DNA of 58,726 nucleotides from Nitrospirota bacterium. Lineage in GTDB: Bacteria > JACPQY01. A program made the position numbers and the translations under genes. Numbering within the stretch: the first letter of the stretch is position 1; each line of letters opens with the position of its first letter. Shown in pieces: positions 23,001 to 49,260 of the stretch. A model generated the notes under the pieces. It searched no databases, was not told where the DNA came from, and was given only the letters and a program-made list of their open reading frames with translations. Location: the NCBI GenBank assembly GCA_016190245.1, contig JACPQY010000055.1:1-58726 (forward strand), in the 5' to 3' direction.

Positions 23001-23217
23001 GCCCTTCGCGCCGGACGGTGAAGACCATGCCATCCTTGTTGATCATGTTGGAGGTGAAGGGGATGTACCGCTCGGGGACTGAGACGGCAAAGTTCGGCCG
23101 GTAGCCCACGGAGAAGCCGAGAATAGCCAAGACGGTGGCCGAGGCCGCGGCGGCACCCCGGTACTTGTTTAAGAATCGGCCCAGGGCGCTGAGCTTGTTG
23201 AGCGTGCGCCAAATCAT
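20086..23217 (-). CDS. Large exported protein with C-terminal Ig-like domains
   Basis: A 1043-residue secreted protein. Residues ~15-45 are hydrophobic (AAAASATVLAILGFSVGY), a signal peptide or anchor. The central part is Cys-rich and Asp/Asn-rich (CNDCDLDGMIAGPTD, PDLDGNSKGDF), suggesting calcium-stabilised loops. The C-terminal ~230 residues hold two Ig-like modules of the form YRLDNGLYR...LLEGTHLLEVQAVD and a Pro-rich repeat. It ends GGGSGFFGCVQVP without a hydrophobic tail. The C-terminal modules resemble those of the protein at 24700-28275, so the two are related surface proteins. No catalytic motif was recognised. SD-like GGAG precedes the ATG; a possible -10 TACAAT lies at 23269-23274. 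Confidence 0.8.
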   Translation of the reverse strand: MIWRTLNKLSALGRFLNKYRGAAAASATVLAILGFSVGYRPNFAVSVPERYIPFTSNMINKDGMVFTVRREGLDYLGNILGPSLDTPDMYQYLADAILGLDPLSDTCTSGQHVIVTAEDGVDGTPIDGKVLYYDTVATEPYGRQNNYNNKAPTAVLWVYTGDHGGLGHPNEPHIDAYVTLYDVVMELRVKTFSTLCLLGCCNQGDTGCCSLCNSATIAKLDTFPLRLVIDPQKIDVNNVGSRADDPVISIDVPTVDITPTGTIVACGLTLDWGCVAPLIEPMLEPILASTIQSQVRGLLPMDLNGMFASEPAYSCPTYSGTDNNPWCKCGVQTDPMLDGFGYCNDCDLDGMIAGPTDLYEPAYKANLGETPPTTYGTLSCGEALIDIGAYPHLSIVTTGEGSPSDRMTMNTDFACDVDTPAPDIVPGRINAQAKLCCCGEGGCATCVGNPPGNTPCCPAAGSCRPTPPGSPDYNNDSIPDNNMFSCSIGQDAGNQIASAIVQSGLISCEINENGFSSGFPLPLPLPIDMQALLKVESFAGLVPPIDDFADPGTYVTIRWRPYGDDNPATSEICAAIGAEPGPEFQEKGCSALIATGATDINYSFRNIYTDFFIEEGGQMEKAFGIRGDVGGAVDLEFKTALEPDRNFGSKAAFLAAGCNPLAGSNGCLKLTLDPIDLKINDFVYFNFPVGSCPVFDPLDPDCYRLDNALMAEALPDVLINLVGGAINLWVETQITLAGLGINAFFAGPDRYAPDLDGNSKGDFLTCAGNFTGTFDLALLLDSLSSSSTEDPCAIENLKAAARMMASRAAEEKMAAARRPPPAGGPETYIIHPRSGKAVTQLQLNAVEARDARLLPLNSRVGVEAVGSGKSTYTYRLDNGLYRASKEPYLELPFLLEGTHLLEVQAVDETGLPDPTPARMKFTVDSVPPKIRIHGVTPKGIAADGTMVFEADPTSVLVQVSDYQNEFKDLQAFYWLDGSPQTPITASETRVDLSRLDAGKSHMLSVHAIDPSGQESRVVRTLKIRPTADESGGGSGFFGCVQVP

Positions 23218-27600: not shown

Positions 27601-28275
27601 GTTGCCGTCGTCGCCGTTCCCGCAGGTCCCGTCCGGCCCGCAATCGATCACGTAGTGGGCGAAGGCGCAGGTGTCAGTGTCCGCTCCCGTGTCGGTGCAG
27701 CCACCCCAAGCCGCATCGGGAAGGCCGTTCCCGTCATTGTCGTCGCAGGCGATGAAGGTTTCGCCTGGGTCGAAGTACTTGTTGGCGGTGCCGGGGTTGG
27801 AGTCGTGGTCGTAGCCGGTGCCGTTGGCGTCAACCCAGCCTTCTCCCTTGCCCCAGAGGAAGTCGCCGTTGGTATCCGTGAAGGACTCGTTCCCGGTGCA
27901 CCCGTTGTTGGCGTTGCGGTCGGTGCCGAAATCGCCGTCGTTGTCTTCGATGAAAAGGGCTACACAGGCGTTGCCGATGAGAGGAACGGAGAGGCACATA
28001 TCTGTGAGGGCATCACTGGAGGAAAGAAGGCTACGGATGGCGTTCTTCGTGTCCGCGTTGTTCAGGAACTGCTGGAGGATGTACTCGGCATAGTTGAGCG
28101 TTCGGTCGTTGATGCGCACCCCCAAGGTGTTCGCCACGGCCGAGGGGGCCGGTGGAGTGGGTGAGGTGCCGCAAGAGGATGTCTGGCTGTCGCCGCTGCT
28201 ACACGCGAAAGCGTAGAACATGACGCCGCCACACATGGCCGCGCGGATGAAAGAGAACCGTAGCCGTTTTGTCAT
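24700..28275 (-). CDS. Giant lipoprotein with calcium-loop repeats, Ig-like domains and MYXO-CTERM-like tail
   Basis: A 1191-residue surface protein. N-terminal lipobox: MTKRLRFSFIRAAMCGGVMFYAFAC. Residues ~110-260 are rich in thrombospondin-3/dockerin-like Asp loops (EDNDGDFGTD, CDDNDGNGLPD, NSDQDPCND). Near the C-terminus two Ig-like domains appear (SHRVDGGAWSHFRAESE..., VSYRLDGADWQIIPAETT...). It ends with Cys, a hydrophobic stretch (AVYLAALGLALIAL) and RRRSR, like MYXO-CTERM sorting signals, so it may be anchored at both ends. Start ATG 28275 follows GGGAGG with ideal spacing. It heads a minus-strand group with the two preceding genes. Confidence 0.82.
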   Translation of the reverse strand: MTKRLRFSFIRAAMCGGVMFYAFACSSGDSQTSSCGTSPTPPAPSAVANTLGVRINDRTLNYAEYILQQFLNNADTKNAIRSLLSSSDALTDMCLSVPLIGNACVALFIEDNDGDFGTDRNANNGCTGNESFTDTNGDFLWGKGEGWVDANGTGYDHDSNPGTANKYFDPGETFIACDDNDGNGLPDAAWGGCTDTGADTDTCAFAHYVIDCGPDGTCGNGDDGNGQAGRGIPASYCTLAQLFFDRDAGVDLNSDQDPCNDAGDAGRLGINNAGDGVSIDFTPTVSIAPSLGADLDPDTLTDIQNGTVDDRLDITLTLANFGIDLVAKPNPLADGCGEDTLCGVPNEEDDEPDKFINYMGLAGNATIPSLSVTMGIGVIAGDFASGNAAVNPGTELGIELDPLDLDTNLTLVLKPETPDDSDLSHLLSTMLPYIEIATLRYFTEGYDSGLDFFLYEGLPLMDLNDTLGGSFEHPLVPGTNIAMGLGLNFGMTTADDNADDVGDAILLRGGMGLDLAWDGTNCVDANGTNALSWGTALATLGPNDPSANPYMIGAGMHENALSSIIYNMIKSGILCMTIDTATLEAMGLDSSTLPIDLFSTDTFGLLMPKLVDPSYGNLAGKAMRFVLRPSFKDPLDGQYTAAEDTPYILAGGPNIDLPAANPYGDVSPGISMEMVHLTLDFQVDTSAGQTGTWQRVFGLDLSTGLSMGVGIDRDTSCTGCFSTTMRPRITLEADPEVDSFLWYDEAVVLVGAGYDPGDPGQQYAEVEGVLSNLLPLVLSGVLQADILPRIEISEPFGIGDPRANPPRGITLTTGFVGGTGADSPGGGADPETTNTSGDTFGMFMSIVEDLDGDCTPPELANGTVDACESENYLNPNDVWNLVCGDMIYDSMASDPEQADTAELICQMCAGANHCPAIGNDPDNCTVSLPSTCGLQLAPARFQTAGTDFTHLAPQTVVDLGGDLRGADVDLLNGYQSADAYGLDPHGGSVISVGYEDRYSHPSEMVYSHRVDGGAWSHFRAESEITLPPLLEGLHSVEVMSRNRLGVVDSSPAVVRFWMDHVAPIIRVNGLQGDRTVLTHSPAFNVQVADFVAGPTDLYVSYRLDGADWQIIPAETTLQFEGLAEGEHLLEVRASDPAGNGRAEELRFEVATPEEKASEGGCETVVGHGSNGSAVYLAALGLALIALRRRSR

Positions 28276-28330
28276 GGTGCCTCCCAAAATATTCATCAGC
28301 TTCACGCTGTGAATTTGCCCTTTGGCCTCT

Positions 28331-28359
28331 ATATTACTGAAGCTCACAGCCCTTGTCAA
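28331..28359 (-). promoter_or_regulatory. Consensus sigma-70 promoter of the 20-28 kb surface-protein operon
   Basis: On the minus strand: TTGACA (28354-28359), 17-base spacer, TAATAT (28331-28336). The leader of about 50 bases carries a strong GGGAGG ribosome site. Unlike most promoters here it is not leaderless. Confidence 0.8.
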
Positions 28360-28418
28360 GTGGAATAGGAGCAATTACCGAACCAGACGGCGATAGCGTG
28401 CCATAGGGTGTGTGGTGT

Positions 28419-33810: not shown

Positions 33811-36732
33811 GTGGCGCCACGAGTCATGGCTTGGGGCAAACATTCGATCCTTTTCATCGCGATAGGGCTCGCCTCTCTGGCGGGCTCGTGTGGTGACATC
33901 CGCAAGGGCGCGGCGGCCAAGGCGGACCTTCAGGGTACCGTGATGGACTCCGCCACGAAGGCCCCGGTGCAGGGCGCGAAGGTGACCGTGTGGTCGGTTG
34001 ACAAGCCGGAAGATCCGCCCGTGGTCGAGGCCGTGACCGACCAGAAGGGGGCCTTCGCGTTTCCGGTGCTGAGGGAGGGGCAATACAAGGTCGTTGTCGA
34101 ATCGTCGTCCCACGTGCGGTACGAGACAACCGTCGCCATTGTGGACACGACCGGTGGGGAGGCCGCGGGGGTCGATCTCAAGATCCTTCTGAATGCCAAG
34201 GGCGACATGTATCCGGAGTGGGCGACCTACGTTTCGAGGGGCGCGGTTCGGGCCGTGGCCCGCGCCAAAACGGGAGATCTGTGGGTGGGGTCGGATGGAG
34301 GACTGGTGAGGATCCGTCCCGATGGTGGGCAGGTGGGGTACACGAGCTCCGAAGGTCTCCCCGCCAATCGTGTGTATGCGCTTCTCGCCACGGACGTCCA
34401 TCTCTGGGTGGGGACGGAGGGCGGCCTGGCGCGGCTGGCTTGGGACTCCGAGGAGTGGGCGCTTTTCAGCTCGGAGAAGGACGGCTTGGCCGGGGACAAG
34501 ATCTATGCGGTGGATCGAGGGCCGGACGGCTCGATCTGGCTGGGGACCGACGGCGGTGTGAGCCGGCTTCAAGGCTACTATTGGACGAGCCACCGCAAGG
34601 GAACGGGCACGGTGAAGAACGCGTGCGGGGCGGTGGAGTTGCCGGATCCTGAGGTGCTTGCCCTGGCTTTCGATCCCGAGGGCCGCACTTGGTTCGGCAC
34701 CGCGAACGGCCTGGCGAGCCTCGGGAACAACGCGTGGTGCTGGTATCTCTCCACGTGGCCGAACGTGGGTCTGGCGGACAATCGGATCGAGCGGGTGAGG
34801 ATCCTCCCGGGCGCGTCGATCGAGCGCAGCGTGAAGTGGCTGGCGACCGGGTTGGGGGTTTCCTCGTTCGACGGTTGCCGGTGGACCTCGTACGGGCCTG
34901 ACCTTGTCACGGAGGAGTATCCACCCGTCTCGGAGAGTCGATGCTCAGAGGCGGCGTTCACGTGCGATCCGACAAACACGAATTTGACGTGCACGGTGGA
35001 CGGGGCGGCCTGCGGGTCGGACCCCACGGCGTGCGTGGCCAAAGGGGGCGAGTGCAAAGGCATCTGCACGCTCCTGAAACCGACGTGCGACCTCGGGCGG
35101 GCGACCTGCGTGACGCCATCCGCCACCTGCACGCTGCCTGCGAAGGGGTGTACGGCCGACGGGAGCGTCTGCACGGACGAAACGGCGTGCCAGCAGAAAG
35201 GGGGACAGTGCATTCAGCTCAAGATGCGCTGCGAGGGACAGGTGGCCAACTGCGTCCTACCGGCGCTCGTGTGCCCCGGCCCGGGCTGCGATCAGGCGGA
35301 GGCGAAGTGCGAGACCGCAGGAGCCGTGTGCACCTTGCCGCAGCGCGCCTGTGTGCTCGCCGCCAACTCGTGTGAGGGGCAGGGGGTGTGCGCCCTGCCC
35401 GCTCGGCAGTGCGTTTTCCCGCAGGAGCGGCCCTGTCCGCTGGTATCCATCAAGGTGTCGGCGGACCAGATGCCGGATGGTCGGTTCTTCACGGTCTGGG
35501 CGGACACGGACGGCACGGTGTGGGCCGGCACGCGCAGCGGGCTGCTGCGTTTTTCAAACAATCAATGGAGCTGGCTCAAGAGCGAGGTTCCGCAGGTGCC
35601 TGTTTCCATGATCACACGCGAGGGCAACGATCTGTGGGTTGGGATCGATGGGGGTTTGAAGAAATACGACGGCTCGAATTGGACCGACCAGGCCCTTCCG
35701 CCGGGCCCCATCGGTCCGGACATCCGCGATCTCGTTCACACGGACGCGGGGACGTGGCTGGCCACGGATCGCGGCGTCAGTTTCTTCAAGACCGACGGGA
35801 CGTGGACCCACTACACGACTGCGCAGGGACTTCCCTCGGACAACGTGCGGGCGATCGAGCGGACCCCCGGAGGCGAGGTCTGGGCGGGCACGCCTACCGG
35901 GCTGGCGAAGCTGGTGAACGACAAGTTTGAGGCGCTCTGCGCCGCGGAGAAGTCCGCGCGGGATACCTGCATCACGAACTGCCAGGCGGGAGATCCCAGC
36001 AAGGTCTGCACGGGAACATGCAGCACTCAGGAGACGGCCTACCAAACCTGCTCGGCCCCTTATCAGGACGTCCGCGCGCTCGAGCCCGGGTCGGGGAACG
36101 CGCTCTGGATCGGGACTTCCAAGGGCCTGCTCCTCAGGGATGGGAGCAACGTCACCAGCTACACGGGCTCAACCGGGTTGCGCGGTAACCTGGTGACCGC
36201 TCTCTATGTGGAATCGGACGGGGCCTTGTGGGTGGCGACGGCCGTAAGCCGCGACCCCACCAGTACCGCGTGCCCAAAGCCGGATCCAAAGACGGGATGC
36301 CAGTTTACCGGCGGGCTGAACCGCATCAAGGGTTCGGAGATTCTCTCCTACACGGGATCGAACGGTCCGCTGGGCAAGATCGTGTATGCGATCGCCCGCG
36401 GCCCCAAGGGGCGACTTTGGGTGGGAACGGATCAAGGCCTGAGCATCTACGATGGAAACGCCTGGTCGCATTACGGCCAGAACACGACCAAGCCGGCGGA
36501 GGGGCCGGGCGGGAAGCGCGTGTATGCGATTGCCGTGACCGACAGGGAGGAGGTGTGGTTGGGGACGGACGCCGGCGCCAGTCGCGGGACGGAGCCGGGT
36601 GGCCCGTGGGAGCACCTGACGAGCACGAAGGGGTTGGCCGACAACAAGGTCGTCGTTGCGAGGACGCGCTCGGGGAACGAAATCTGGTTGGGTACGCCGA
36701 AGGGGGTCAGCGTCTACCAGCCGCGGCAATGA
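33811..36732 (+). CDS. Lipoprotein with two-component-regulator-type propeller and Cys-rich insertion
   Basis: A 973-residue lipoprotein (lipobox SLAGSC; ATG 33826 is a possible start). Residues ~30-120 form a carboxypeptidase-regulatory-like beta-sandwich. The rest is a beta-propeller of Reg_prop repeats (LWVGSDGGLVRI, LWVGTEGGLARL, IWLGTDGGVSRL, VWAGTRSGLLRF, LWVGTDQGLSIY and others, at least ten), the sensor blade type of hybrid two-component kinases, here without any kinase. The propeller is interrupted at 34943-35445 by ~165 residues with more than 25 Cys (CTVDGAACGSDPTAC and similar), and again by a short Cys-rich loop near 35935-36055. Probably extracellular ligand sensing or adhesion. 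First of four consecutive surface genes. Confidence 0.82.
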   Translation: MAPRVMAWGKHSILFIAIGLASLAGSCGDIRKGAAAKADLQGTVMDSATKAPVQGAKVTVWSVDKPEDPPVVEAVTDQKGAFAFPVLREGQYKVVVESSSHVRYETTVAIVDTTGGEAAGVDLKILLNAKGDMYPEWATYVSRGAVRAVARAKTGDLWVGSDGGLVRIRPDGGQVGYTSSEGLPANRVYALLATDVHLWVGTEGGLARLAWDSEEWALFSSEKDGLAGDKIYAVDRGPDGSIWLGTDGGVSRLQGYYWTSHRKGTGTVKNACGAVELPDPEVLALAFDPEGRTWFGTANGLASLGNNAWCWYLSTWPNVGLADNRIERVRILPGASIERSVKWLATGLGVSSFDGCRWTSYGPDLVTEEYPPVSESRCSEAAFTCDPTNTNLTCTVDGAACGSDPTACVAKGGECKGICTLLKPTCDLGRATCVTPSATCTLPAKGCTADGSVCTDETACQQKGGQCIQLKMRCEGQVANCVLPALVCPGPGCDQAEAKCETAGAVCTLPQRACVLAANSCEGQGVCALPARQCVFPQERPCPLVSIKVSADQMPDGRFFTVWADTDGTVWAGTRSGLLRFSNNQWSWLKSEVPQVPVSMITREGNDLWVGIDGGLKKYDGSNWTDQALPPGPIGPDIRDLVHTDAGTWLATDRGVSFFKTDGTWTHYTTAQGLPSDNVRAIERTPGGEVWAGTPTGLAKLVNDKFEALCAAEKSARDTCITNCQAGDPSKVCTGTCSTQETAYQTCSAPYQDVRALEPGSGNALWIGTSKGLLLRDGSNVTSYTGSTGLRGNLVTALYVESDGALWVATAVSRDPTSTACPKPDPKTGCQFTGGLNRIKGSEILSYTGSNGPLGKIVYAIARGPKGRLWVGTDQGLSIYDGNAWSHYGQNTTKPAEGPGGKRVYAIAVTDREEVWLGTDAGASRGTEPGGPWEHLTSTKGLADNKVVVARTRSGNEIWLGTPKGVSVYQPRQ

Positions 36733-36739
36733 GAAGCGG

Positions 36740-36895
36740 GGCCGATCGGTGGGCCGCGAGAAGGGGGCGTTCGGAAGCAACCCTCACCCGATATTTCCGC
36801 CGGCAGGCGGACAAGCTGACCACCCTCCCCGCCTGTCCGCCCAACGGTGGATCGGCGGGCAGGTCCCGCGTGCAGGAGAGGGGAGGGTGAGGGTG
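36740..36895. other. Intergenic stretch with CCCTCACCC/GGGTGAGGG inverted ends
   Basis: CCCTCACCC near 36781 pairs with GGGTGAGGG near 36885. Between them are CGGCGGGCAGG-type repeats. The right arm contains GGGAGG, which could serve as ribosome site for a GTG at 36893. Confidence 0.45.
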
Positions 36896-36919
36896 TCCGC
36901 TCGCAGATTGCCCGGGGGA

Positions 36920-39160
36920 ATGACCACCCGGACAGGGTTGGCGGGGCGCTTGCGGGCCGGACTGCTTGCGATGGCCGTTGCCGCCCTTTGCGTGCGCGCC
37001 CCTCGCGCCATCGCCGCTGCCCCTGGCGAGGAAGCCGACCTAACCCGGCGCTCCGCGGCGTTCACGGGGCTCTCGGGCTTGGCGCGCGTGTACACGGCGT
37101 GGAAGATCCCGCGCGCAACGTTGGTCAACAAGCTCAGTGGACTTTACTTCACGCGGGAGCCGTTTCTTCTCGCCACGCAGGCCCACGAGCGGTTTGGGGG
37201 ATACATGTCCTTCACGCTCTCCCCCGCCATCGTGGAGACCAAGCCGCGCCCCGGGGGCAAGGGCCCGCCCGGCGCTGCGCCGATGTGGGAGTCCTTCGAA
37301 GTGGCATTCGCGTACGGCGCGGCCTCGCACGTGAGCCGGGACGTGGAGACCGAGGTCCGGCTGACCACCGAGTCGGCGGGTGACGTTGATGCGGCCCTCA
37401 AGTATGCCCTGCCTTGGCCCCTCTTCGGCAACGTGCTTCACCTGGGCGCGAACACCGGTTTTCACATGCTGAGCCGGATGGCCGATGTCGGGCCGGATCT
37501 GGCCACCATCAGCCCCTGGGCCCGATTTCTCGTGAGCGCGGACTTCAGGCGCTTCTTCCCACTCCAGGCGCACCTGAACGTCGGCTATCTCCAGGACAAT
37601 ACGCTCGACCTCTTCGATGAGAACCAGCCCGTTCCACCGCGCTGGCGTCGATACTCCCAGGGGGCGTGGTACGAGGACAGCTTCCTTCTCGGTTTCGCGC
37701 TCGATGCGCCGGTCTGGCGCTTCATCCCGTACCTGGAAGCCACCGCTTGGATCGACACCGACGGTGACGCGCTCAACGACGCGGGGCAGAAGGTGGGCAT
37801 CCAGAACGTCCGCCAGAATCCCATCTTGATCACGCCCGGCCTGCGCGCCTTCGTCACGCAGCACGTCGCGTTCGAGGCAGGGGCGGACCTGGGCTACCTG
37901 AGCGACGACTTTCCCGGAGCCACCGACGAAGGGCAGAAAGCCATCGTGCCGCCGTGGCAACTGTTCGGCTCTGTCAGCTATGCATTCGTTCCCAAGCTGC
38001 CGGTGCTGCTGAAGGTCAGGCGCGCGGAGGGACGCCTCACCGGAAAAGTCACCGACGCGCAATCTCATCAGCCCCTCGGGCGGGTCGTGATCGACCTGGA
38101 AGGTCCTGAAAAGAACCTCCCCCAGCTTGCCTCGGAGGAACCCTCCGGCGAGTTCGTGCTCGATCGCCTCGCGCCGGGGGCTTACGTCCTTGTCGCCACG
38201 CTGGAGGGCTACGCGCCGCTCAGGCGGGAGTTCGAGATCAAGAAGAAAGAGGTAACCACGATCGACGTTCCGCTTGCGCCGTTGAGGATGACCGGGACGA
38301 TCGCGGGCGGCATCACGATGAAGGACGGCAAGGCGCTCGGTGGTTTGGTCTTTGTCCAGCGAAAGGGCGACGCCACGCCGAAGATCATGAGCACGGATGC
38401 CGCCACGGGCGCTTTCTCCGCCACGCTTGACACGGGTGAATACGACGTGCGCGCCGTGGCCCCAGGCTTCCTGGAGAGCAAGCTGGAGTCGGTTCGGGTC
38501 TCGGCGAACTCCGAGACGCGGCTCGCCTTCGTGCTCGACCCGCGTCCGGAACCAAAACTGATCCGAATCACCGAGGAGAAGATCGAGATCCTCGAGACGA
38601 TCCATTTCGAAACGGGCCGGGCGATCATCAAACCGGTGTCGTATCCCGTTTTGGACGAGATCGCGGGGACGCTGCTCGAGAATCTCGACGTCAACGTGCG
38701 CGTGGAGGGTCACACGGACGACCGCGGCAAGCTCGAAGTCAATGTGGGACTTTCTCAGGACCGCGCGGAGTCGGTGGTGGACTACCTTGTGAACAAAGGG
38801 ATCGAGCGCTCGCGCTTGACGGCGGTCGGCCTCGGGCCGCAGCGGCCCATCGCGGACAATGCCACCGCAGAGGGGCGGGCGAAGAACAGGCGCGTCGAAT
38901 TCATTATCGTCGGCGGCCAGTTCAGGGAGCATGTGAGCCAGGTGACAGCGCCGCCGGGAGGGGCGGAGATCAAGTGGGCGGTCGTGGCCACTGACCCGCA
39001 CGCGATCGTTTATGAAGCGCGCGACGGGAAGGCGATCGGCCGCGCCCGTAGCGGCCAGCGCCTGGCCTACGTGGCCACGGAGGAGGGGTGGGTTTCGGTT
39101 CGGCTCAAGACGGGCAAGGTTGTCTGGATCAAGGCGGGAGACGTCACGCTGCTGCCCTGA
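36920..39160 (+). CDS. OmpA-family outer-membrane protein with regulatory-like and SH3-like domains
   Basis: A 746-residue protein. Signal peptide: MTTRTGLAGRLRAGLLAMAVAALCVRAPRAIAAAP. Residues ~60-350 have alternating aromatic strands (GYMSFTLSPAI, FVSADFRRFFPLQAHLNVGYLQD) fitting an outer-membrane beta-barrel. Two carboxypeptidase-regulatory-like domains follow (~370-540), then an OmpA domain with peptidoglycan-binding residues (VEGHTDDRGKLEVNVGLSQDRAESVVDYL...GRAKNRRVEF) and an SH3-like end (AIVYEARDGKAIGRARSGQRLAYVATEEGWVSVRL). The OmpA plus SH3 pair suggests cell-wall anchorage of the surface assembly encoded around it. GTG 36893 with GGGAGG is an alternative start, but that site lies in repeat DNA. 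Confidence 0.88.
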   Translation: MTTRTGLAGRLRAGLLAMAVAALCVRAPRAIAAAPGEEADLTRRSAAFTGLSGLARVYTAWKIPRATLVNKLSGLYFTREPFLLATQAHERFGGYMSFTLSPAIVETKPRPGGKGPPGAAPMWESFEVAFAYGAASHVSRDVETEVRLTTESAGDVDAALKYALPWPLFGNVLHLGANTGFHMLSRMADVGPDLATISPWARFLVSADFRRFFPLQAHLNVGYLQDNTLDLFDENQPVPPRWRRYSQGAWYEDSFLLGFALDAPVWRFIPYLEATAWIDTDGDALNDAGQKVGIQNVRQNPILITPGLRAFVTQHVAFEAGADLGYLSDDFPGATDEGQKAIVPPWQLFGSVSYAFVPKLPVLLKVRRAEGRLTGKVTDAQSHQPLGRVVIDLEGPEKNLPQLASEEPSGEFVLDRLAPGAYVLVATLEGYAPLRREFEIKKKEVTTIDVPLAPLRMTGTIAGGITMKDGKALGGLVFVQRKGDATPKIMSTDAATGAFSATLDTGEYDVRAVAPGFLESKLESVRVSANSETRLAFVLDPRPEPKLIRITEEKIEILETIHFETGRAIIKPVSYPVLDEIAGTLLENLDVNVRVEGHTDDRGKLEVNVGLSQDRAESVVDYLVNKGIERSRLTAVGLGPQRPIADNATAEGRAKNRRVEFIIVGGQFREHVSQVTAPPGGAEIKWAVVATDPHAIVYEARDGKAIGRARSGQRLAYVATEEGWVSVRLKTGKVVWIKAGDVTLLP

Positions 39161-39358
39161 GCGCCCGGACAGCCCCACAGGTGTCGCCGGCGGCAGGCGG
39201 AGCGGTTGAGGTGGGGCGGAATTCGCGAGTCGTTGGGTCGGGAGTCCAGGGTGGCGTGAGATACGTCACAGACAAGGATGAGACGTTAGGCTATGTTGGT
39301 TGAATCCTAAAGTGCGCCGCGGGGCCTGCCGAACATCCGGCGAAAAGGGGGATTTCAG

Positions 39359-39387
39359 TTGCAAGTCATGGGCGGATTCCTTATGCT
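39359..39387 (+). promoter_or_regulatory. Promoter of giant kelch/RCC1 lipoprotein gene
   Basis: TTGCAA (39359-39364), 17-base spacer, TATGCT (39382-39387). Transcription would begin near 39394, so the start is GTG 39402 or ATG 39405 with an 8-11 base leader. Confidence 0.6.
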
Positions 39388-39404
39388 TTCCTGCGGGCTT
39401 GGTG

Positions 39405-42400
39405 ATGAGTGTGTGGGGCGCGCGCCACGGTTCTGATGTAGCTTGGGCGTGGCCCAGCCTCGCCCGCCGATCGGGCGCGCGGTTCCCGCTCCTTCTCGCT
39501 GTCTTCTCTCTCGCCATCAACACCTGCGGGGGGGGGAGCTGTCTGCTCCTACCCGAGGATGAGGAGAAGGCCGGGCTGGCAGACTACGTTGCACCCGCTC
39601 GCCAGACGGTGAGCGGGGTCGTTCGAGACGATCTCGCGGGAGGCGGCGTGGTGGGGGCCCATGTGACTCTCGCCGTGTGGGCTCCGACCAGCGGCAAAGC
39701 GGCGGTCGCCCGGGGCGGTGGCCGCACGCGGCCCGTCGTGAAGAGCTACGAGGCCGTCACCGGAGCGCGCGGGGAGTTCGCCATCCGCGACGTGCAGGTG
39801 CTCCAAGGCTCCTCGGCGCAGCTTACGATCAAGCGAGACGGCTATTCGGAGACGTTCAAGAGTCTCGCGTACGAGGAGCTCATCGGCGGCGAGATTCACG
39901 CCAGCGACATCGCGCTCAGGCCGGTCATGTACTCCCGGGCGCTGGACAGCCGGAGGTCCGTGCAGACTCCCGACGGCTCCGTCCAGATCCGTCTCTCTGA
40001 AAAACTTCAGTGCGATCCCGCGTGCACGCATCCGGACGACCCGGTGCTGGCGGCCGGACCGACCACTGTGGTGGCGGATGTCTCGGTGATCGATCCCACC
40101 ACGGATGCGGACGCTTTTCCCGTGGGTTTCGAGGGAACGTACACGACCGATGAGAAGGGCAACGTCACCCTGTGCCATGCCCCGCCGGGCAACTCCGAAG
40201 CCGCCAAGACTCTGAGTGTGAACGCCTCGGCCGTGTCGGGCCACTTGGCGCACGGCGACACGATCGGCGCCTGCGCCGGCGATGCGGCGGCGGCGAAGGA
40301 AGCCGAGGCGGACGAGGAGGCGGTCCAAATACCGGTCCAACTCGAGCCCGTCGCGGCGGCTCACTTCGACCTTCGCACGAAGTCGGGGCACATGATCGAC
40401 GCCCTGGTCAAACCGGACACGCCGGCCGAGGTGACCATCGAGGTTCCGCCGACGCTCCAGGAGAAAGTTCTCGATGCCTACGACAAGGGCGAAAGGACCA
40501 TGCCCGCGTTTCATTTCGACGGTGGGGCCGGCACATGGGTGAGGGACGGTGAGGCGCGGCTCGTGGTGGTCGAGGAACAAGCCGTGCGGACCAAGATCGA
40601 CGAGGACGGTGAGACCACAGAGGTGAAGGAGCGCGTGCGAAAAGTTCTGGCCGAGGCCGAGGTGACCAAGACGTGCTGGGTGGTCGTGGCCCAAGAGAAG
40701 CAGGGCGTCTGCATTGAAGGCAAGGTGATCGGGCCGGACAAGGCGGCGGCCAAGGGAGTTTGGGTGCGCGGTGACGGTCTCCGGGGACACGCGAGGGCGT
40801 ATGCGCGGACCCGTCCGGACGGAAAGTATCGCTTGTTTGTGGCGCGGGGCGAAACGGTGCGGATCAGCGTTCACCGGAGGAAGGAGGAGAGCGACACGGA
40901 GGAAGGCGAGGGGCTCCTGGTGGACGCGGGCGCCGAGCCATCCAGCGAAGGATGCATAGAAGCCGCCGATCTCGCGCTGCCAGACCACGGGACGATCACG
41001 GGTCGGCTCCTGGACCGCTCCGGCCAGCCGGTTCAGGGGACCGTGGTCACCTCCCAGGGTGAGGCCGCGGACATCGGCGCGGATGGCGCGTTCTCCGTGG
41101 ATGCCGACGCGGACACCGAGTCGTTGCGCGTGGTGGGCTTGGCGGGTGGTCAGCCGGTGTCTCTGGAGGTCCCGGTGGGAGCCGTGGCCGAGGGCGCGAC
41201 GGTGGATGTCGGCACGGTGACCGTCGCTGCTCCCGTCGCGATCACGGGCGAAGTTAGGGAAGAAGACGGCACCCCCATCGTCGAAGCGGTGGTGGAAGCG
41301 GCGGGGGCCGTGACCGAGACGGACTCGTCCGGAAAATACACGATCAGCGTACCCGCCACCGACAAGCCGGTCGAGATCACGATCTCGGGCATGACGCAGG
41401 AGGGCGAGCCGCTGGCCGCGACCATCGAGGTTTCCACCGCCGGCGCCGCTCAGGTGAAGGCGCCGGAAGTGAAGATCGATCTCGATCCCATGTGCGTAGC
41501 CGGCCGCGTGGTGGATCATCGAGGCCGCGGGCTGCGGGGATCCACCGTGCGCGTGGGTTCGTCCCAAGTGGTTCTGACGGATGACGAAGGACTCTTTCGC
41601 GCCACCGTGCTCGCGGATGGCGACGTGGCCGTGAGCGCGCGGCACCGCGAGGGGGCCATAGATGAAACTTTGGAACGGATCGTGCGCCCGGTAAAGGGTG
41701 GAGCGTGCGAGGAGGTCGAGTTGCGCCTTGATACCCGGCCCGCGTGGGTCTCCGGGCGGGTGACGCGCGGCTCCGGCGGGCGCGGCATCGTGGCGCGTGT
41801 TCGCAGGGCCATTTCACGAGGCGACCCCCTGGAAGGCGTTCAGGTGGTTTCCTCGAACGGCGCCGTTACCACGACGGAGTTCGACGGCCACTACAGGATC
41901 CCCGTGGAGCGCGACGCCTCGGTGACGCTCGTGTTCACACTCGGCGAGGCGCGGGAGGAAGAAGCCGTGACCACGCGCGAGCGCGGCTCCGTGACGTTCC
42001 TGGACGTGGAGATGGACATCGAGGACGCGCCCCCGGTCGTGCGCGAGGTCGAAACCAGTTCGGAGGCAACACGGCCGGGCGGCACGGTCGAGATCGAGGT
42101 GACCGTGGCGGACGAGGGGGCCATTAAATATGAAGTGGCGTCTCCAACGGGAGGCACGGTGGACACGACGGGCGGAACCGCGCCGGCCACGGAGGAAGGC
42201 ACCACCGTGACGGTCACGTGGAGCGCGCCGCAGGAGCCGGGCGTCTACGATGTGCCCGTCACGATCACGGATGCGGGCGGTCAAACGACCACGGCAACGG
42301 TCACGATCGAGGTGCACACGGAGAATGAAGCGCCCAGCGTGGTGGATGTGGCGGCGACCACCGAAGCGCCCGTGCCCGGGGAGAAGGTGACGGTCACGGC

Positions 42401-45260
42401 CGCGGCGGACGATTCCGAAGGCGATGCGCTCACCTACGACTGGGCCCTGACGGGCTCGGACGGCACGGACCTGAGCTCCCTGCTCAGCGAGCCCACCGAG
42501 GGTGCCGTCGCTTTCGTAACGCCCATCGTGCCCGAGGGCACCGAACTGACGCTTTCGGTCGAGGTGACGGACGCCCTCGGGGCCACCACCACGAGCACCA
42601 CGGAGATCGAGGTGTCCGACGGGTCCCTCCGGCCGGAGGCTGAGACCGCGGTTCCTGAGACGACCGTGGCGACAAAGCCGCCCGACGTCTCGACGGCGAC
42701 CACTCAGACGGTCACGTTCTCGAGCGACGTGGCGGGCACGAAGTATCAATGCAGTCTGGACGGAGCGGAGCCGAAGCTCTACGAGGCCTCGGCCACGTTC
42801 GAGGGGCTGTCGGACGGCACGCACACCTTGGTGGTGCAGGCGCTGGCGCCCGACGGCAGCGTGGACCCCGTGCCCGAGGTGATCACATGGGTTGTGGACA
42901 CGAACGCGCCCGTCACGAAAATCACGCAGAAGCCGGACGCGGTCACGAAATCCACCACGGCGACATTCGCCATCGAGGCCGGCGAGAAGGGGGCGACCTA
43001 CGAGTGCCGGTTGGACAGCACGGCGCTCGCGACCTGCGTAGGGCGCACGTGCACGCCGCCGGCGGGCGACCTTTGGACGAAGCGGGCGCCGATGCCCACG
43101 CCGCGCAACTGGCCCGCAGCGGCGGTGGTGGGCGGCAAGATTTACGTGATGGGCGGTTGGGGCGGCACGTCGCCGACCCAGTACGCCCTGAGCGTCGTGG
43201 AAGTATATGACCCTGTGTCGGACAGTTGGTCCAGCGCGAAACCGCTTCCCGCGCCGCGCAGCCGCGCGGGAGCGGCGGTGATCGGCGGCAAGGTCTACGT
43301 GGCGGGCGGCATCAACAAGGCAGGCGGCCTGAAAACGTTGGAGGTCTACGATCCAGCCACGGATCAATGGACCACGAAGGCCCCCGCGTTGACGACACGG
43401 TGGGAGAGCGCGGTGGCGGTGGTGGGAGAGCACCTCTACGTCGTCGGGGGAGGCTCGAACGCCGCCGAGGAATATGACCCCGCGACCGACAAATGGACCT
43501 CGAAGGCCCCGCTCTCCTCAAACCGGTGGGATGTGGGCGTGGCCGCCGTCGGCGGAAAGCTCTACGTGATGGGCGGGATCGCCAGTGGCAGCACGCTGGC
43601 CGTCGCGTCGCTGGACGAGTTCGACCCCTCATCGAACACGTGGACAACGAAGGCATCCATTCCGACGGCGCGGAGGTTCGTGGCGGCCGCGGAGGTGAAC
43701 GGCAAGATCTACGCCCTCGGCGGAACGCCCAAAGGGGCAGGCTCCTTCGGCGTTGTGGAGGAGTTCGACCCGGCCACCAACACGTGGACCGCGCGGGCCG
43801 CGCTCCCCACGCCGCGCAACGGCGTGGCGGCCGTCGCGCTCGGCGGGAAGCTCTTCGCCGTGGGCGGCTTCGCGGTCGGCACCCAGGCGGCAACGAACGT
43901 CCTCGAGGAGTACACGCCGCCACCGACTTCCGCCGCGTGTTTGCAACCGCTGGTGACCGTATCCTATAGCGGCCTCGCCGAAGGTTCGCACACGTTCGAG
44001 GCCGTGGCGATTGATAGCACCGCCAAACGCGATCTCACGCCGGAGACCTTCACGTGGACCGTGGACCTGACGCCACCGACCTTCGCCGGCGCGACGGCGG
44101 TCAGCGCGGCAGGGGCGGGCAAGGCCACGCTCACGTGGTCCGCAGGCTCCGACACCGTGACGCCGGCTGCGTCGCTCGCGTACGACGTGTGCGTGAGCAC
44201 AAAATCCGGTGGGTGCTGCGGAGATTCTTTCACCGCGGCCCACGCTTCAACGGCAGGTTCAACTTCATTCACAGTCGAGGGTATGTCGGGAGGACTCGTC
44301 CACTACTTCGTCGTGAAGGCGAGGGACGCCGCAGGCAATCGAGATACGAACCAGGTGGAGCGTTCCGTCACGGTCCCTGCCGCGGCGCCCGCGCGGCTCC
44401 CGGGACTCGGCTCCTATATCGCACCGGTCCGAAACTCCAAGGCCGGCGCCCAGCACGCCTGTTCAGTCGATCCCTCCGGGGTGGTTGCATGCTGGGGCCT
44501 GAACGCCTTGGGGCAGCTCGGGACCGGAAACTGGCTCGATGCTCTCGTGCCGTCGCCCGTGATCGGTCTCGGGCCGGCCTCGTCGGTCGCCGCCGGCGGG
44601 TATCACACCTGCGCGCTCGAGGCGGGCGGCACGGTGAGTTGCTGGGGATCGAACGCCTTCGGGCAGCTTGGAAACGGCTCGTGGTCGGATGCGGAAACGC
44701 CGGTGAGGGTTCCCGATCTGGACGGGGTGACGGGGCTGAGCGCCGGCGAGCGCCACGCGTGCGCGTTGCTGGGCGATGGCCGCGTGAAGTGCTGGGGCTG
44801 GAACGCCTATGGACAGGCGGGGGACGGGACGAGCACTGATGCCCGTGTTCCCGTTGAGGTGAAGGGCGTGGAGGCGGCCGCGGATATTTCGGCCGGCGGT
44901 GGCCACACCTGCGCCGTTCTCTCCGACGGGCGCGTCACGTGCTGGGGCCACAACGGCTACGGCCAGTTGGGAAACGGGACGCTCGGCGACTCGCGGTTAC
45001 CCGTCGAAGTGGTGGGGATCCGGGACGCCGTGGACGTGGAGCTGGGGGCCTTCCACAGTTGCGCCACGGTCCGATCCGGAGCCGTGAAGTGCTGGGGCCA
45101 CAACGGCTACGGCCAACTTGGGACGGGAACACTGGAGGATGCGGCGATTCCTGTGGATGCGCCGGATCTGTCCGGCGCGCGGGAGCTCACGGTGAAGGAC
45201 TTCTTCACGTGCGCGACGAAGACCGGCGAGCGGACTTGCGTTGGCTATGGAGCGAAGTGA
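39405..45260 (+). CDS. Giant multidomain lipoprotein with inserted kelch propeller and terminal RCC1 propeller
   Basis: A 1951-residue lipoprotein, the largest gene here. A G9 tract (39528-39536) encodes the Gly residues right after lipobox Cys (INTCGGGSC). Domains: repeated carboxypeptidase-regulatory-like sandwiches (~60-870), two PKD/cadherin-like domains (~875-1075), an Ig-like domain (~1100-1165), a second Ig-like domain split by a six-repeat kelch propeller (~1215-1510; repeats PRNWPAAAVVGGKIYVMGG, VYDPATDQWTTKAP and so on), a fibronectin-III-like module (LTPPTFAGATAVS...), and five RCC1-type repeats (~1680-1951; HTCALEAGGTVSCWGSNAFG, KCWGHNGYGQLG). The next gene is a paralog lacking both propellers. 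Probably a surface adhesin or receptor. The next gene starts one base after the stop. Confidence 0.85.
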   Translation: MSVWGARHGSDVAWAWPSLARRSGARFPLLLAVFSLAINTCGGGSCLLLPEDEEKAGLADYVAPARQTVSGVVRDDLAGGGVVGAHVTLAVWAPTSGKAAVARGGGRTRPVVKSYEAVTGARGEFAIRDVQVLQGSSAQLTIKRDGYSETFKSLAYEELIGGEIHASDIALRPVMYSRALDSRRSVQTPDGSVQIRLSEKLQCDPACTHPDDPVLAAGPTTVVADVSVIDPTTDADAFPVGFEGTYTTDEKGNVTLCHAPPGNSEAAKTLSVNASAVSGHLAHGDTIGACAGDAAAAKEAEADEEAVQIPVQLEPVAAAHFDLRTKSGHMIDALVKPDTPAEVTIEVPPTLQEKVLDAYDKGERTMPAFHFDGGAGTWVRDGEARLVVVEEQAVRTKIDEDGETTEVKERVRKVLAEAEVTKTCWVVVAQEKQGVCIEGKVIGPDKAAAKGVWVRGDGLRGHARAYARTRPDGKYRLFVARGETVRISVHRRKEESDTEEGEGLLVDAGAEPSSEGCIEAADLALPDHGTITGRLLDRSGQPVQGTVVTSQGEAADIGADGAFSVDADADTESLRVVGLAGGQPVSLEVPVGAVAEGATVDVGTVTVAAPVAITGEVREEDGTPIVEAVVEAAGAVTETDSSGKYTISVPATDKPVEITISGMTQEGEPLAATIEVSTAGAAQVKAPEVKIDLDPMCVAGRVVDHRGRGLRGSTVRVGSSQVVLTDDEGLFRATVLADGDVAVSARHREGAIDETLERIVRPVKGGACEEVELRLDTRPAWVSGRVTRGSGGRGIVARVRRAISRGDPLEGVQVVSSNGAVTTTEFDGHYRIPVERDASVTLVFTLGEAREEEAVTTRERGSVTFLDVEMDIEDAPPVVREVETSSEATRPGGTVEIEVTVADEGAIKYEVASPTGGTVDTTGGTAPATEEGTTVTVTWSAPQEPGVYDVPVTITDAGGQTTTATVTIEVHTENEAPSVVDVAATTEAPVPGEKVTVTAAADDSEGDALTYDWALTGSDGTDLSSLLSEPTEGAVAFVTPIVPEGTELTLSVEVTDALGATTTSTTEIEVSDGSLRPEAETAVPETTVATKPPDVSTATTQTVTFSSDVAGTKYQCSLDGAEPKLYEASATFEGLSDGTHTLVVQALAPDGSVDPVPEVITWVVDTNAPVTKITQKPDAVTKSTTATFAIEAGEKGATYECRLDSTALATCVGRTCTPPAGDLWTKRAPMPTPRNWPAAAVVGGKIYVMGGWGGTSPTQYALSVVEVYDPVSDSWSSAKPLPAPRSRAGAAVIGGKVYVAGGINKAGGLKTLEVYDPATDQWTTKAPALTTRWESAVAVVGEHLYVVGGGSNAAEEYDPATDKWTSKAPLSSNRWDVGVAAVGGKLYVMGGIASGSTLAVASLDEFDPSSNTWTTKASIPTARRFVAAAEVNGKIYALGGTPKGAGSFGVVEEFDPATNTWTARAALPTPRNGVAAVALGGKLFAVGGFAVGTQAATNVLEEYTPPPTSAACLQPLVTVSYSGLAEGSHTFEAVAIDSTAKRDLTPETFTWTVDLTPPTFAGATAVSAAGAGKATLTWSAGSDTVTPAASLAYDVCVSTKSGGCCGDSFTAAHASTAGSTSFTVEGMSGGLVHYFVVKARDAAGNRDTNQVERSVTVPAAAPARLPGLGSYIAPVRNSKAGAQHACSVDPSGVVACWGLNALGQLGTGNWLDALVPSPVIGLGPASSVAAGGYHTCALEAGGTVSCWGSNAFGQLGNGSWSDAETPVRVPDLDGVTGLSAGERHACALLGDGRVKCWGWNAYGQAGDGTSTDARVPVEVKGVEAAADISAGGGHTCAVLSDGRVTCWGHNGYGQLGNGTLGDSRLPVEVVGIRDAVDVELGAFHSCATVRSGAVKCWGHNGYGQLGTGTLEDAAIPVDAPDLSGARELTVKDFFTCATKTGERTCVGYGAK

Positions 45261-45261
45261 G

Positions 45262-48200
45262 ATGAAACAGCCATCCGGCATCGTGTTGCGACTCGGGTCG
45301 GCCATCGCCCTCGTGACAGCGCTTGGCGTCTCCTGCGACGGGGGTCTGGACCTAGGCCTGGACTTGGATCTGGGCAAGGGTAAGAGTCGCGAAGTTCTCG
45401 GTTTCACCCTCAGCGGCGTGGTGCTGGACAACCTTTCGGGCGATCCCGTCGTGGGCGCGGAGGTCCTACTCACCTTCACGGAAGGCTCCACCGTCTCGGG
45501 CGCGCCGGCGCGGGGGGTGGCTCGTCGGGCGACCTCGCGAGAGGCCAAAACGCTGAGCGGTCCCTCGGGAGAATATCTCATCAAGGACATTCTTCTCCCC
45601 GACAAGGGGGACCTTCAGCTCGTGGCGAGGGCCTCGGGGTACGCGCCGGCCTACCAGATCCTGGCGCTGGAGGACATGGCGGAGGACCCGTCGCTCGCCG
45701 TCGCGCTCCGCCTGCAGCCGGTGATGTACTCCCTCGCCTTGGGCGAGAACGGTGATGCGTCGTCGCCGGATGGAGCCATCCACCTGCGCCTGAGCGGCGA
45801 TATCGTGAAAAAGGCCCGCGTGAGGGGCGCGGGGAAAGAGGGCGGATCGAAGAAAGAATCGAAAGTGAAAGCCCAGGTCTCGGTAGGGGATCCCACGGTC
45901 GATCAAGACCTCTTCCCGGGCGGGTTCGAAGTGAAACCGGAGCCCCGGGAGAAGCAGGGCACGAAGTCGGGCGGAACGACCGCCAAGGAGCCGCAGGCTG
46001 CCTCCGGTGGACAGAAGGCGGCCGACCCCGAGTTGGATGAGAAGCAAACGCTGGAGCCGGTGAGCTTCTTCCAAGTTTCGGTGACGGACGAGAAGGGTCG
46101 CAGTGTGAGCGGAGCCGTCAGCGCCGCGTCGCCCGCGAGCGTGACCGTCAAGATCCCGCCGGGGCTCCAAGACAAGCATCTGAAAAAGTTCGATCGAGGC
46201 AAGCGGCACGTCGGACTGTTCTGCTATGACGCGGCGGACGGGAAGTGGGTCCGCGCGGGAAACGCTCGCCTCCTCACCGCGGAAAGGAAGAGACGCGCCG
46301 GAGAGAAGACCGAGAAGGGAGACGGGAAGAAGAAGGCCCACCGTCGCGCGGGAGCGGCGGAGGGGAAGGTGCGGGAGTTGTTCGCCGAGGTCACCCTGAA
46401 GGACGCGTGCTGGGCCGCCTTGGGCGATGTCGAAGACCGAGTTTGCATCGAGGGTCGGGTGGTCAACGCGAGTAGTCAGCCTGTCGAGCGGATGTGGATT
46501 CGGGCCGAGGGGCTGAGGTCTCACTTCGAGAAGGACAAGAAGGTGAGGAAGAGGACGGGCGAGTACCGAATCCGCGTGCCGGCAGGCGAGATCGCCAAAC
46601 TCTCCGCGAACCTCGTGGCCCATCCGAAACGCAAGGAAAAGAAGTTCAAGAAACACCGACCCACGGCGGGAGCTTCGATCGTGGTGGACACAAGGCCCCA
46701 CGTGCTGGCCGGTCGCCGGGGCGAGTGCCTGGCTGCGCCGGATATCGTGGTGGCCGAGCCGGTCAAGCTGCGTGGCCGCGTGCAAAGCAAGAAGGGCAAG
46801 GCGCTGAAAGCGCATGTCATCACGTCGGAGGGCACGGCGACGCCCGTCTCCGGAGACGGAACATTCGAGGTTCCGGCCGAGACGGCCTCCGTTGACCTCA
46901 CCGTGCAAACGGAGCAGGCGGGCGTGGAGGTGGCCACGGTGGTGGAGGTCAAGGCGAGCGACGATGAGGAAACGGTGGATGTGGGAACGGTCGAGGTGGC
47001 GGAGCCCGCCGTTCTCGTCGGTACGATCACCGAGGGCCCGGAGAAGACCCCTGTGGAGGGGGCCGTCGTCAGCGTGGACGGCAACCAGGCCGTCACCGAT
47101 GCGGAAGGGGAGTACACCCTGGCTGTCCCCGCGTCGGGCGAGGTGGTCGAGTTCATCGTGGCCTCGACGGACGAGGAGGGGGAGCGGCTCGTCACAGAGG
47201 AGAAGGCGAAAATCACTGAAGCGGCTCAGATTGCCGTCCCGCCCGTCGCGCTCTCGATCGAAACCGCCTGCGTCGTGGGCCAGGTCGTTGACGCGGATGG
47301 GAACGGGATCGCGGGGGCGACCGTCCGAACGGAGACCTCACCGGTGTTCGTCACCGATGGCGAGGGGCGGTTCGGGGGGGAAGTCCCGCGGATGGACACG
47401 CTTGTGCTCACCGCCGGCGTCCGTATCGGTGCGATTGACGAGGAACGAACCGCGACGGTGGCCGTCGCGCCGGCCGCACAGGGACAGTGCGCGGATGTCA
47501 CACTCGCGATCGACGATCGGCCCGCGCTCATCACCGGCGAACTCAAGGGATCCTCCGGGCAGCCTCTTGAGGGCGTGGAGGTCGTCTCTTCCTTCGGGGC
47601 ATCGGATGAAACCGACGAAAACGGCGTGTATGAAATCGAGGCCCCACCCGAGGCAGAGGTGACACTTTCCTGCTCGCTCGGGGAAGTACATCAGGAGGTG
47701 ACCGTCACCGCTGGGGACGTCAGCGCGGATCGCGACGTGGACATCCCGTTGCCCACCACCGACGCTCCTCCGCAGGTTGAGGTGGTGGAGATGACGCCGG
47801 AGGCCGCCACGCCCGGAGGCACCGTCACGATCGCGTTGGAGATCAGCGACGAGGGGGGAACCGTCCGCTACGAAGTGCCGGAGCTGCAAGCCGGCGCGGT
47901 GGCGCAGCCGAGCGGGGATGTGGCGGTCAAGGAGGGGGAGGGTACGTTCAGCCTGACCTTCACAGCGCCCACCAGCCCGGACTGGTACCCGGTTCCCGTG
48001 ACACTCACGGACGCGGAAGGCCACACGGGGCTAACCACCATCTCCGTGGACGTGCGAGGCACGAACGCGCCTCCGACCGTGGTGGAGGCCGTGCCGAGCA
48101 CGCAGGCTCCGGTGGCGGGCGAGCTCGTCACCGTCGAAGTGCCCGTGGATGATGCGGATGGGGACAGCCTGGACTTCGGGTGGGAATTAACCGCCGAGGA

Positions 48201-49260
48201 CGGGACGGACCTCTCCTCCCTGATCAAGACGGACGGTGGTCCGACAGCCTCGTTCGTCTGCCCGAAGGGGCAGGAAGGCAGGGCGCTGGAGGTAGAGGTG
48301 ACCGTTCGGGATTGCGAGGAGGGCACCTCCGGAGCGTCGTGTCGCACGACGGGAGCGGCCACTGAGCACGAAAAGACCGTGACGATCGAGGTCGTGGTGG
48401 GAACAGGAGAGGGGCGGCCTTCGCTCGAGGAAGTGATCCCAGACACGCTGTTGGTCACCGGGCCCGGCGCGACGTCCACGTCCACGCAGCAGGCCTTCGA
48501 ATTCGCGAGTACGGTGGATGCCGCGACCTTCACATGCTCGCTCGACGGCGCCGCAGCCGCCGCCTGCCCATCGAAGACGAGCTATTCGAGCCTGGCCGCG
48601 GGCTCTCACACCCTCACGGTGCAGGCCGTGTCCCCCGCGGGAGGGGCGGACCCCACGCCGCTCCAGATCGCGTGGACTCTGGATCCCGTGGTGCCGGAGA
48701 CGGCGATCGACAGCGGCCCCGCGAGCGCGACCGCCCAGAAGGAAGCGACGTTCAAGTTCAGCAGCCCGGACACGACGGCCACCTTCGAGTGCGAGCTCAA
48801 CAGCGGGGGGTACCGCTCGTGCGTTTCCCCGCTTGTGCTGGCCGATCTGCCCGAGGGCGCGAACACGTTCAAAGTCCGGGCCAAGGACGCTGTCGGGAAT
48901 GTGGATGCCACCCCGGCCACCAAGACCTGGAACGTGGATCTGACTCCTCCAACCTTCCTTGGCCTAACCTCGATCAAAGTCGTTTCCTCGACTCAGGTGG
49001 ACCTGTCGTGGTCGGCAGCCACGGACAATGTGACGGACGCCTCCACGATCCTCTACGATGCCTGCCGCAGCACCACGGCGGGCGGATGTTGCTATTGCGG
49101 CGGCACGTTCACCCCCCTGTACACGTCGGCTGCGGGGGCCACAAGCCTGTCAGCCACCGGGCTTTCTCCCGCCACAACGTACTACTTCACTGTCCGGGCG
49201 CGCGACGCCGCCGGCCTGCGCGATACCAACCAGGTCACGCTCTCCGTCACCACGCCATAG
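45262..49260 (+). CDS. Giant multidomain lipoprotein, paralog of the preceding gene
   Basis: A 1332-residue lipoprotein: signal peptide ending LGVSC, then the same plan as its neighbour. Shared landmarks are DNLSGDPVVGAEV (neighbour DDLAGGGVVGAHV), LRLQPVMYSLAL (LRPVMYSRAL), PDGAIHLRLS (PDGSVQIRLS), serial carboxypeptidase-regulatory-like domains, PPQVEVVEMTPEAATPGGTV, two PKD-like domains, Ig-like SYSSLAAGSHTLTVQAVSPAG and ECELNSGGYRSC domains, and a final fibronectin-III-like module. A Lys/Glu-rich segment (ERKRRAGEKTEKGDGKKK) near residue 340 is unique to this copy. ATG 45262 follows GGAG and is one base after the preceding stop, so the pair is cotranscribed. Function unknown; a tandem duplicate is certain from the shared landmarks. 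Confidence 0.85.
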   Translation: MKQPSGIVLRLGSAIALVTALGVSCDGGLDLGLDLDLGKGKSREVLGFTLSGVVLDNLSGDPVVGAEVLLTFTEGSTVSGAPARGVARRATSREAKTLSGPSGEYLIKDILLPDKGDLQLVARASGYAPAYQILALEDMAEDPSLAVALRLQPVMYSLALGENGDASSPDGAIHLRLSGDIVKKARVRGAGKEGGSKKESKVKAQVSVGDPTVDQDLFPGGFEVKPEPREKQGTKSGGTTAKEPQAASGGQKAADPELDEKQTLEPVSFFQVSVTDEKGRSVSGAVSAASPASVTVKIPPGLQDKHLKKFDRGKRHVGLFCYDAADGKWVRAGNARLLTAERKRRAGEKTEKGDGKKKAHRRAGAAEGKVRELFAEVTLKDACWAALGDVEDRVCIEGRVVNASSQPVERMWIRAEGLRSHFEKDKKVRKRTGEYRIRVPAGEIAKLSANLVAHPKRKEKKFKKHRPTAGASIVVDTRPHVLAGRRGECLAAPDIVVAEPVKLRGRVQSKKGKALKAHVITSEGTATPVSGDGTFEVPAETASVDLTVQTEQAGVEVATVVEVKASDDEETVDVGTVEVAEPAVLVGTITEGPEKTPVEGAVVSVDGNQAVTDAEGEYTLAVPASGEVVEFIVASTDEEGERLVTEEKAKITEAAQIAVPPVALSIETACVVGQVVDADGNGIAGATVRTETSPVFVTDGEGRFGGEVPRMDTLVLTAGVRIGAIDEERTATVAVAPAAQGQCADVTLAIDDRPALITGELKGSSGQPLEGVEVVSSFGASDETDENGVYEIEAPPEAEVTLSCSLGEVHQEVTVTAGDVSADRDVDIPLPTTDAPPQVEVVEMTPEAATPGGTVTIALEISDEGGTVRYEVPELQAGAVAQPSGDVAVKEGEGTFSLTFTAPTSPDWYPVPVTLTDAEGHTGLTTISVDVRGTNAPPTVVEAVPSTQAPVAGELVTVEVPVDDADGDSLDFGWELTAEDGTDLSSLIKTDGGPTASFVCPKGQEGRALEVEVTVRDCEEGTSGASCRTTGAATEHEKTVTIEVVVGTGEGRPSLEEVIPDTLLVTGPGATSTSTQQAFEFASTVDAATFTCSLDGAAAAACPSKTSYSSLAAGSHTLTVQAVSPAGGADPTPLQIAWTLDPVVPETAIDSGPASATAQKEATFKFSSPDTTATFECELNSGGYRSCVSPLVLADLPEGANTFKVRAKDAVGNVDATPATKTWNVDLTPPTFLGLTSIKVVSSTQVDLSWSAATDNVTDASTILYDACRSTTAGGCCYCGGTFTPLYTSAAGATSLSATGLSPATTYYFTVRARDAAGLRDTNQVTLSVTTP

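Follow-up and report, generated by a model that had tools for sequence, protein, structure and literature searches.

Several described systems resemble parts of the locus analyzed here. Sensor domains of Bacteroidetes hybrid two-component systems (HTCS) bind oligosaccharides and are predicted to contain two seven-bladed propellers and a YYY domain (PMC3243724). PorE carries a propeller, a carboxypeptidase-regulatory domain, and an OmpA domain in one protein, and roles in peptidoglycan binding are assigned to the Asp, Asn, and Arg of OmpA domains (PMC7192894). SusC/SusD-type loci share with this cluster the combination of CarboxypepD_reg domains and surface lipoproteins, but the cluster is without a receptor, SusD, or enzymes. 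Large modular bacterial surface lipoproteins (Ig, PKD, fn3, Kelch, or RCC1) have the same modules, lipobox, and stalk-and-head layout as the two giant proteins of the locus, which differ in being retained as an ancient tandem pair and in having a Kelch propeller nested inside an Ig-like domain.

The window, meaning the whole stretch of 58,726 nucleotides analyzed, is contig C44 (JACPQY010000055.1) of a 3.29 Mb draft genome (G000). Four consecutive plus-strand genes occupy 33.8–49.3 kb, and third-codon-position GC of 82%–83%, with a mirrored pattern in antisense ORFs, indicates that they are coding. Their features are as follows, with the evidence in brackets.

33811..36732, + strand: gene 1, a propeller lipoprotein (Pfam, codon bias, lipobox, PDB sequence match)
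33928-34179, + strand: N-terminal CarboxypepD_reg domain of gene 1 (Pfam)
34942..35436, + strand: 165-residue Cys insert in gene 1 (Cys count, ortholog alignment)
36920..39160, + strand: gene 2, a barrel-OmpA-SH3 protein (Pfam, start choice, ortholog 44% identical)
about 37037-38020, + strand: predicted beta-barrel of gene 2 (sequence character, without a Pfam match)
38036-38530, + strand: two CarboxypepD_reg domains of gene 2 (Pfam)
38606-38890, + strand: OmpA peptidoglycan-binding domain of gene 2 (Pfam, 75.7 bits against a cut-off of 27.2)
38993-39148, + strand: SH3-like end of gene 2 (weak SH3_3 match, 18.5 bits)
39405..45260, + strand: gene 3, a giant lipoprotein with Ig-like and fn3 domains and two propellers (Pfam, alignment, topology test)
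39597-42644, + strand: core of gene 3 in common with gene 4 (alignment)
42933-43052 and 43935-44114, + strand: halves of the host Ig-like domain around the Kelch propeller of gene 3 (alignment)
43053..43934, + strand: six-bladed Kelch propeller, nested in the Ig-like domain of gene 3 (alignment, model)
44373..45239, + strand: C-terminal propeller of RCC1 repeats in gene 3 (Pfam, alignment; neither gene 4 nor the two relatives of the pair have it)
45247..49260, + strand: gene 4, a giant lipoprotein without propellers (identity to gene 3, topology test, lipobox LGVSC)
45388-48420, + strand: core of gene 4 (alignment with gene 3)
48676-49257, + strand: Ig/fn3 end of gene 4

Likely starts lie later than those of the longest ORFs for gene 2 (ATG at 36920), gene 3 (ATG at 39405), and gene 4 (ATG at 45247 or 45262). 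Genes 1 and 2 are separated by 187 bp and genes 2 and 3 by 244 bp, while genes 3 and 4 either overlap or almost abut. Scans for promoters and terminators found no more than in shuffled sequence. The sequence-only reading had described a propeller lipoprotein, an OmpA/SH3 protein, and two giant lipoproteins on one strand, a description with which Pfam, codon composition, and lipobox patterns agree. It had also placed CarboxypepD_reg domains in all four proteins, and each exceeds the curated Pfam cut-off of 32.3 bits (45.0, 68.8, 63.6, and 81.7 bits for genes 1 to 4). Their supposed surface nature is supported by signal peptides or lipoboxes, an OmpA domain that retains Asp, Asn, and Arg, and beta-domains throughout. 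Lipid anchoring of genes 1, 3, and 4 is predicted from a lipobox match after a hydrophobic segment; the pattern is clear in gene 1 (LAGSC) and gene 4 (LGVSC) and weak in gene 3, which has only GGGSC. The signal peptide of gene 2 is plain, as judged by eye.

Gene neighborhoods were compared with those of exactly one other genome of the phylum, G001, which belongs to the same family. Orthologs of the four genes are found there on three contigs, with gene 1 on C13, gene 2 on C16, and genes 3 and 4 side by side in the same order on C3, the sole pair of the four that is still adjacent. The gene 1 ortholog neighbors a glucose/sorbosone dehydrogenase, a 711-residue protein without a family, and a weak FadL-type match; the gene 2 ortholog neighbors a carbon-starvation-type transporter (identified by reading the sequence) and a large repetitive protein. 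Other proteins of the window have no common neighbors in these ortholog stretches except for one weak match near the giant pair. Seven barrel-OmpA loci occur in G001, none with another CarboxypepD_reg gene nearby. In five unrelated genomes, at least one CarboxypepD_reg ORF lies 8 kb from an OmpA homolog among the matches listed. The sequence-only reading had proposed a four-gene surface system, to be abandoned if homologs were never neighbors in other genomes; in G001, genes 1 and 2 are separate from all the others, and genes 3 and 4 adjoin. A four-gene operon is thus not supported as a conserved unit by this comparison, and the conserved unit is the pair of twin giants. Separation in the sole relative could be a secondary loss of linkage, and the gene set may cooperate in the lineage of G000 only.

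We therefore favor, with reasonable confidence, a reading in which the locus holds three units that use a common beta-module and in which the giant pair forms lipid-anchored rods with exchangeable heads, rather than a four-gene machine. The first unit would be a stand-alone double-propeller lipoprotein with a cysteine-heptad insert, the second an outer-membrane protein of barrel, OmpA, and SH3 parts that links this membrane to peptidoglycan, and the third a two-gene operon of giant lipoproteins that arose by an old tandem duplication and was retained as a pair. Four consecutive CarboxypepD_reg genes, all on the same strand, are unlikely under random placement, which counts against this reading, as do the weak lipobox of gene 3 and the lack of a reliable fold for the core beyond its first domain. 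Across G000, 22 ORFs carry CarboxypepD_reg, and seven of them fall in two clusters (four on C44 and three on C46); the adjacency of genes 3 and 4, at least, stems from duplication. With these results the candidate four-gene system is removed, and testable parts stand in its place.

A genus-specific four-part surface complex, with the OmpA protein as its peptidoglycan anchor, the propeller lipoprotein as a sensor or cap, and the giants as ligand binders, is unlikely. The same domain does occur in four consecutive genes on one strand, and C46 of G000 has a similar arrangement, in which twin giants come after a gene for an outer-membrane barrel. Yet all four orthologs exist in G001 without being adjacent, no giant lies near any of its seven barrel-OmpA loci, and genes 1, 2, and 3 are separated by gaps of 187 and 244 bp. 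In the C46 locus (L009, 441-12149), a TonB-dependent receptor directly precedes two giant lipoproteins, in which LamG, glycosidase-like, FGE, and Kelch domains occur. This three-gene order is kept on C14 of G001 (L158, 2419-13001), with identities of 65%, 55%, and 50%. Unlike the four-gene cluster, the C46/C14 locus retains its neighborhood in the relative, and it is a better candidate for a real surface system.

Genes 3 and 4 are tandem duplicates (34% identity over 1,190 aa) built of stacked transthyretin-like, PKD, and Ig-like domains. On the core common to both, the closest partner of gene 3 is the first gene of the G001 pair, and that of gene 4 is the second; each of the two alternative topologies falls 65 log units short and is rejected (AU P < 1e-4). 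Duplication is therefore older than the divergence of the two genera, and each genome still has both copies in the same order. Gene 3 also has a Kelch propeller (196 bits) and an RCC1 propeller (139 bits). In a multiple alignment, the Ig-like domain that the Kelch propeller splits in gene 3 is intact in gene 4 and in both G001 relatives. The Kelch model has pLDDT above 90 over most of the propeller and matches Kelch structures with TM scores of 0.8–0.9 by target length; the halves of the host Ig-like domain were modeled without confidence, so the apparent nesting of the propeller within that domain rests on the alignment. As a case of a propeller set into an Ig-like domain, gene 3 is a clean one. 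The model of the N-terminal core was built from two sequences and is reliable only for the first domain, with a mean pLDDT of 40 beyond it. A motif of the type CHxPPGN...HLxHGDTxGAC, without a Pfam annotation, was seen at about 40150-40290 in gene 3 and in both G001 giants (three of the four giants, at differing positions).

More distant relatives of the core were identified in a second small phylum (G341 and G386) and nowhere else at the same threshold among the 386 genomes searched. When named genomes were searched with gene 3, all matches were Kelch and RCC1 proteins, spread over many phyla, and the core was not found. The G341 protein (P0014; L163, 6133-11799) is a lone lipoprotein that combines MopE motifs with an fn3 domain and an RCC1 propeller; its hydrophobic/basic C-terminal tail resembles a sorting signal. 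A further tandem giant pair with MopE and RCC1 occurs in G001 (L159, 210-12444). Tandem giants are a recurring theme in the family of G000 and G001. Because the core persists in distant relatives while the heads on it differ (MopE, RCC1), we propose a stalk with an exchangeable head. The giants would form a hetero-pair of lipid-anchored rods (transthyretin-like, PKD, and Ig-like) that hold binding heads off the membrane, exposed at the surface and available to ligands. Heads would be swapped by insertion and terminal fusion, with Kelch and RCC1 here, none in the G001 pair, and MopE and RCC1 farther out; the first giant, gene 3, would have gained its Kelch propeller inside the Ig-like domain and its RCC1 propeller at the end. 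In the two genomes of the phylum, the giant pair has been kept through deep divergence while the propeller heads change. A neighboring pair of CarboxypepD_reg giants, one with NHL repeats, was also seen in G001 (L160, 407-10197).

Gene 1 matches Reg_prop with 115 bits (Pfam), and its ortholog on C13 has 40% identity. Among solved structures, it is closest to the sensor domains found in hybrid two-component systems of Bacteroidetes (PDB 4a2l, E 4e-22; 3v9f). Like the periplasmic sensors 4a2l, 3v9f, and 3ott, it has Reg_prop repeats, and its 14 blade-like motifs of the W-x-G-T type (five before the insert and nine after, counted by eye; a script pattern catches most) fit two seven-bladed propellers. 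Unlike them, it has a predicted lipid anchor, an N-terminal CarboxypepD_reg domain, and a 25-Cys insert after the fifth blade motif. Y_Y_Y and kinase domains have no Pfam match in gene 1, which terminates with its last blade and has no transmembrane sensor part. Resemblance to sensor domains of Bacteroidetes glycan regulators (PMC3243724) would favor a SusC/SusD-like locus for glycan capture, composed of an outer-membrane protein, surface lipoproteins, and a propeller of the glycan-sensor type, as would the C46/C14 locus, where a TonB-dependent receptor is paired with lipoproteins that have LamG and glycosidase-like domains. We consider this improbable, as no TonB receptor, SusD, or glycoside hydrolase was found in the four proteins or the scanned neighbors, and weak SusC matches reach 29 bits, where the cut-off is 368, and are confined to the common domain.

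The insert in gene 1 is the most novel part of the locus and the part most worth following. It has 25 Cys in 165 residues, and 18 of the 24 intervals between them are exactly seven, whereas random placement of Cys gave 1.4 heptad intervals on average and at most 7 (20,000 trials). The G001 insert has 44% identity, and all 25 Cys fall in identical alignment columns (25/25 conserved), with 20 intervals of seven. The insert matched no Pfam family and nothing in the PDB below E 0.01, and no credible match was found outside the phylum in the 386 genomes searched. One weak match in G181 (E 2.6e-4) was judged to be due to chance; read by eye, the opposite strand at that place resembles a portion of a sigma-54 regulator gene. 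A reading of the insert sequence showed no CxxCH motif, the signature of c-type cytochromes. Rusticalin repeats have a Cx6Cx6-7Cx8Cx7CC pattern (PMC6339383); their spacing is similar, but they form no extended heptad array. A literature search gave nothing on point for heptad cysteine repeats or for this domain combination. The heptad-cysteine insert is a conserved domain without a known family, and both a disulfide ladder and a metal-binding repeat are possible. That it represents a novel type of repeat domain, bound by disulfides or metal, is a tentative suggestion that we hold with considerable doubt; set among the blades of a sensor-type double propeller at the cell surface, it would perhaps be what makes a surface receptor of the phylum responsive to redox state or metal.

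Gene 2, the putative link between outer membrane and peptidoglycan in the three-unit reading, begins with a barrel-like stretch of ~330 residues. Its ortholog on C16 of G001 has 44% identity, and the peptidoglycan-binding residues are kept and invariant between the two (D600, N608, and R615; alignment positions). It resembles OmpA-family peptidoglycan-anchored proteins and the C-terminal part of PorE in having an OmpA domain with Asp, Asn, and Arg and CarboxypepD_reg ahead of it, but differs in its predicted barrel at the start, its SH3-like end, and a chain with neither TPR nor propeller. Likeness to PorE and to PorZ, which has propellers, might suggest a part in type IX-like secretion, but this is very improbable: PorE does have the same kinds of domains (PMC7192894) and the NCBIfam PorZ and PorE models match partially, but both are far under their cut-offs (53.9 of 260 and 80.3 of 600 bits), a match to SprA_N (PF14349) is absent in G000 and G001 in a search run without a positive control, and the domains are divided over two proteins that are unlinked in G001. 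The outer-membrane exchange proteins TraA/TraB were also considered and rejected, as the TraB model reached 103 of 700 bits and matched only the OmpA part.

Ig modules of the cluster had also been reported in a MopE lipoprotein and in the proteins encoded at 20–28 kb of the window. This sharing holds weakly, with short Ig-like matches (best E 2e-5 to 4e-5), and does not extend to CarboxypepD_reg, which is absent from them. Two large minus-strand proteins (20086-23217 and 24700-28374), without Pfam families, have a common C-terminal Ig-like stretch (33% over 164 aa). The protein at 24700-28374 ends in a hydrophobic segment and RRRSR, resembling a C-terminal sorting signal.
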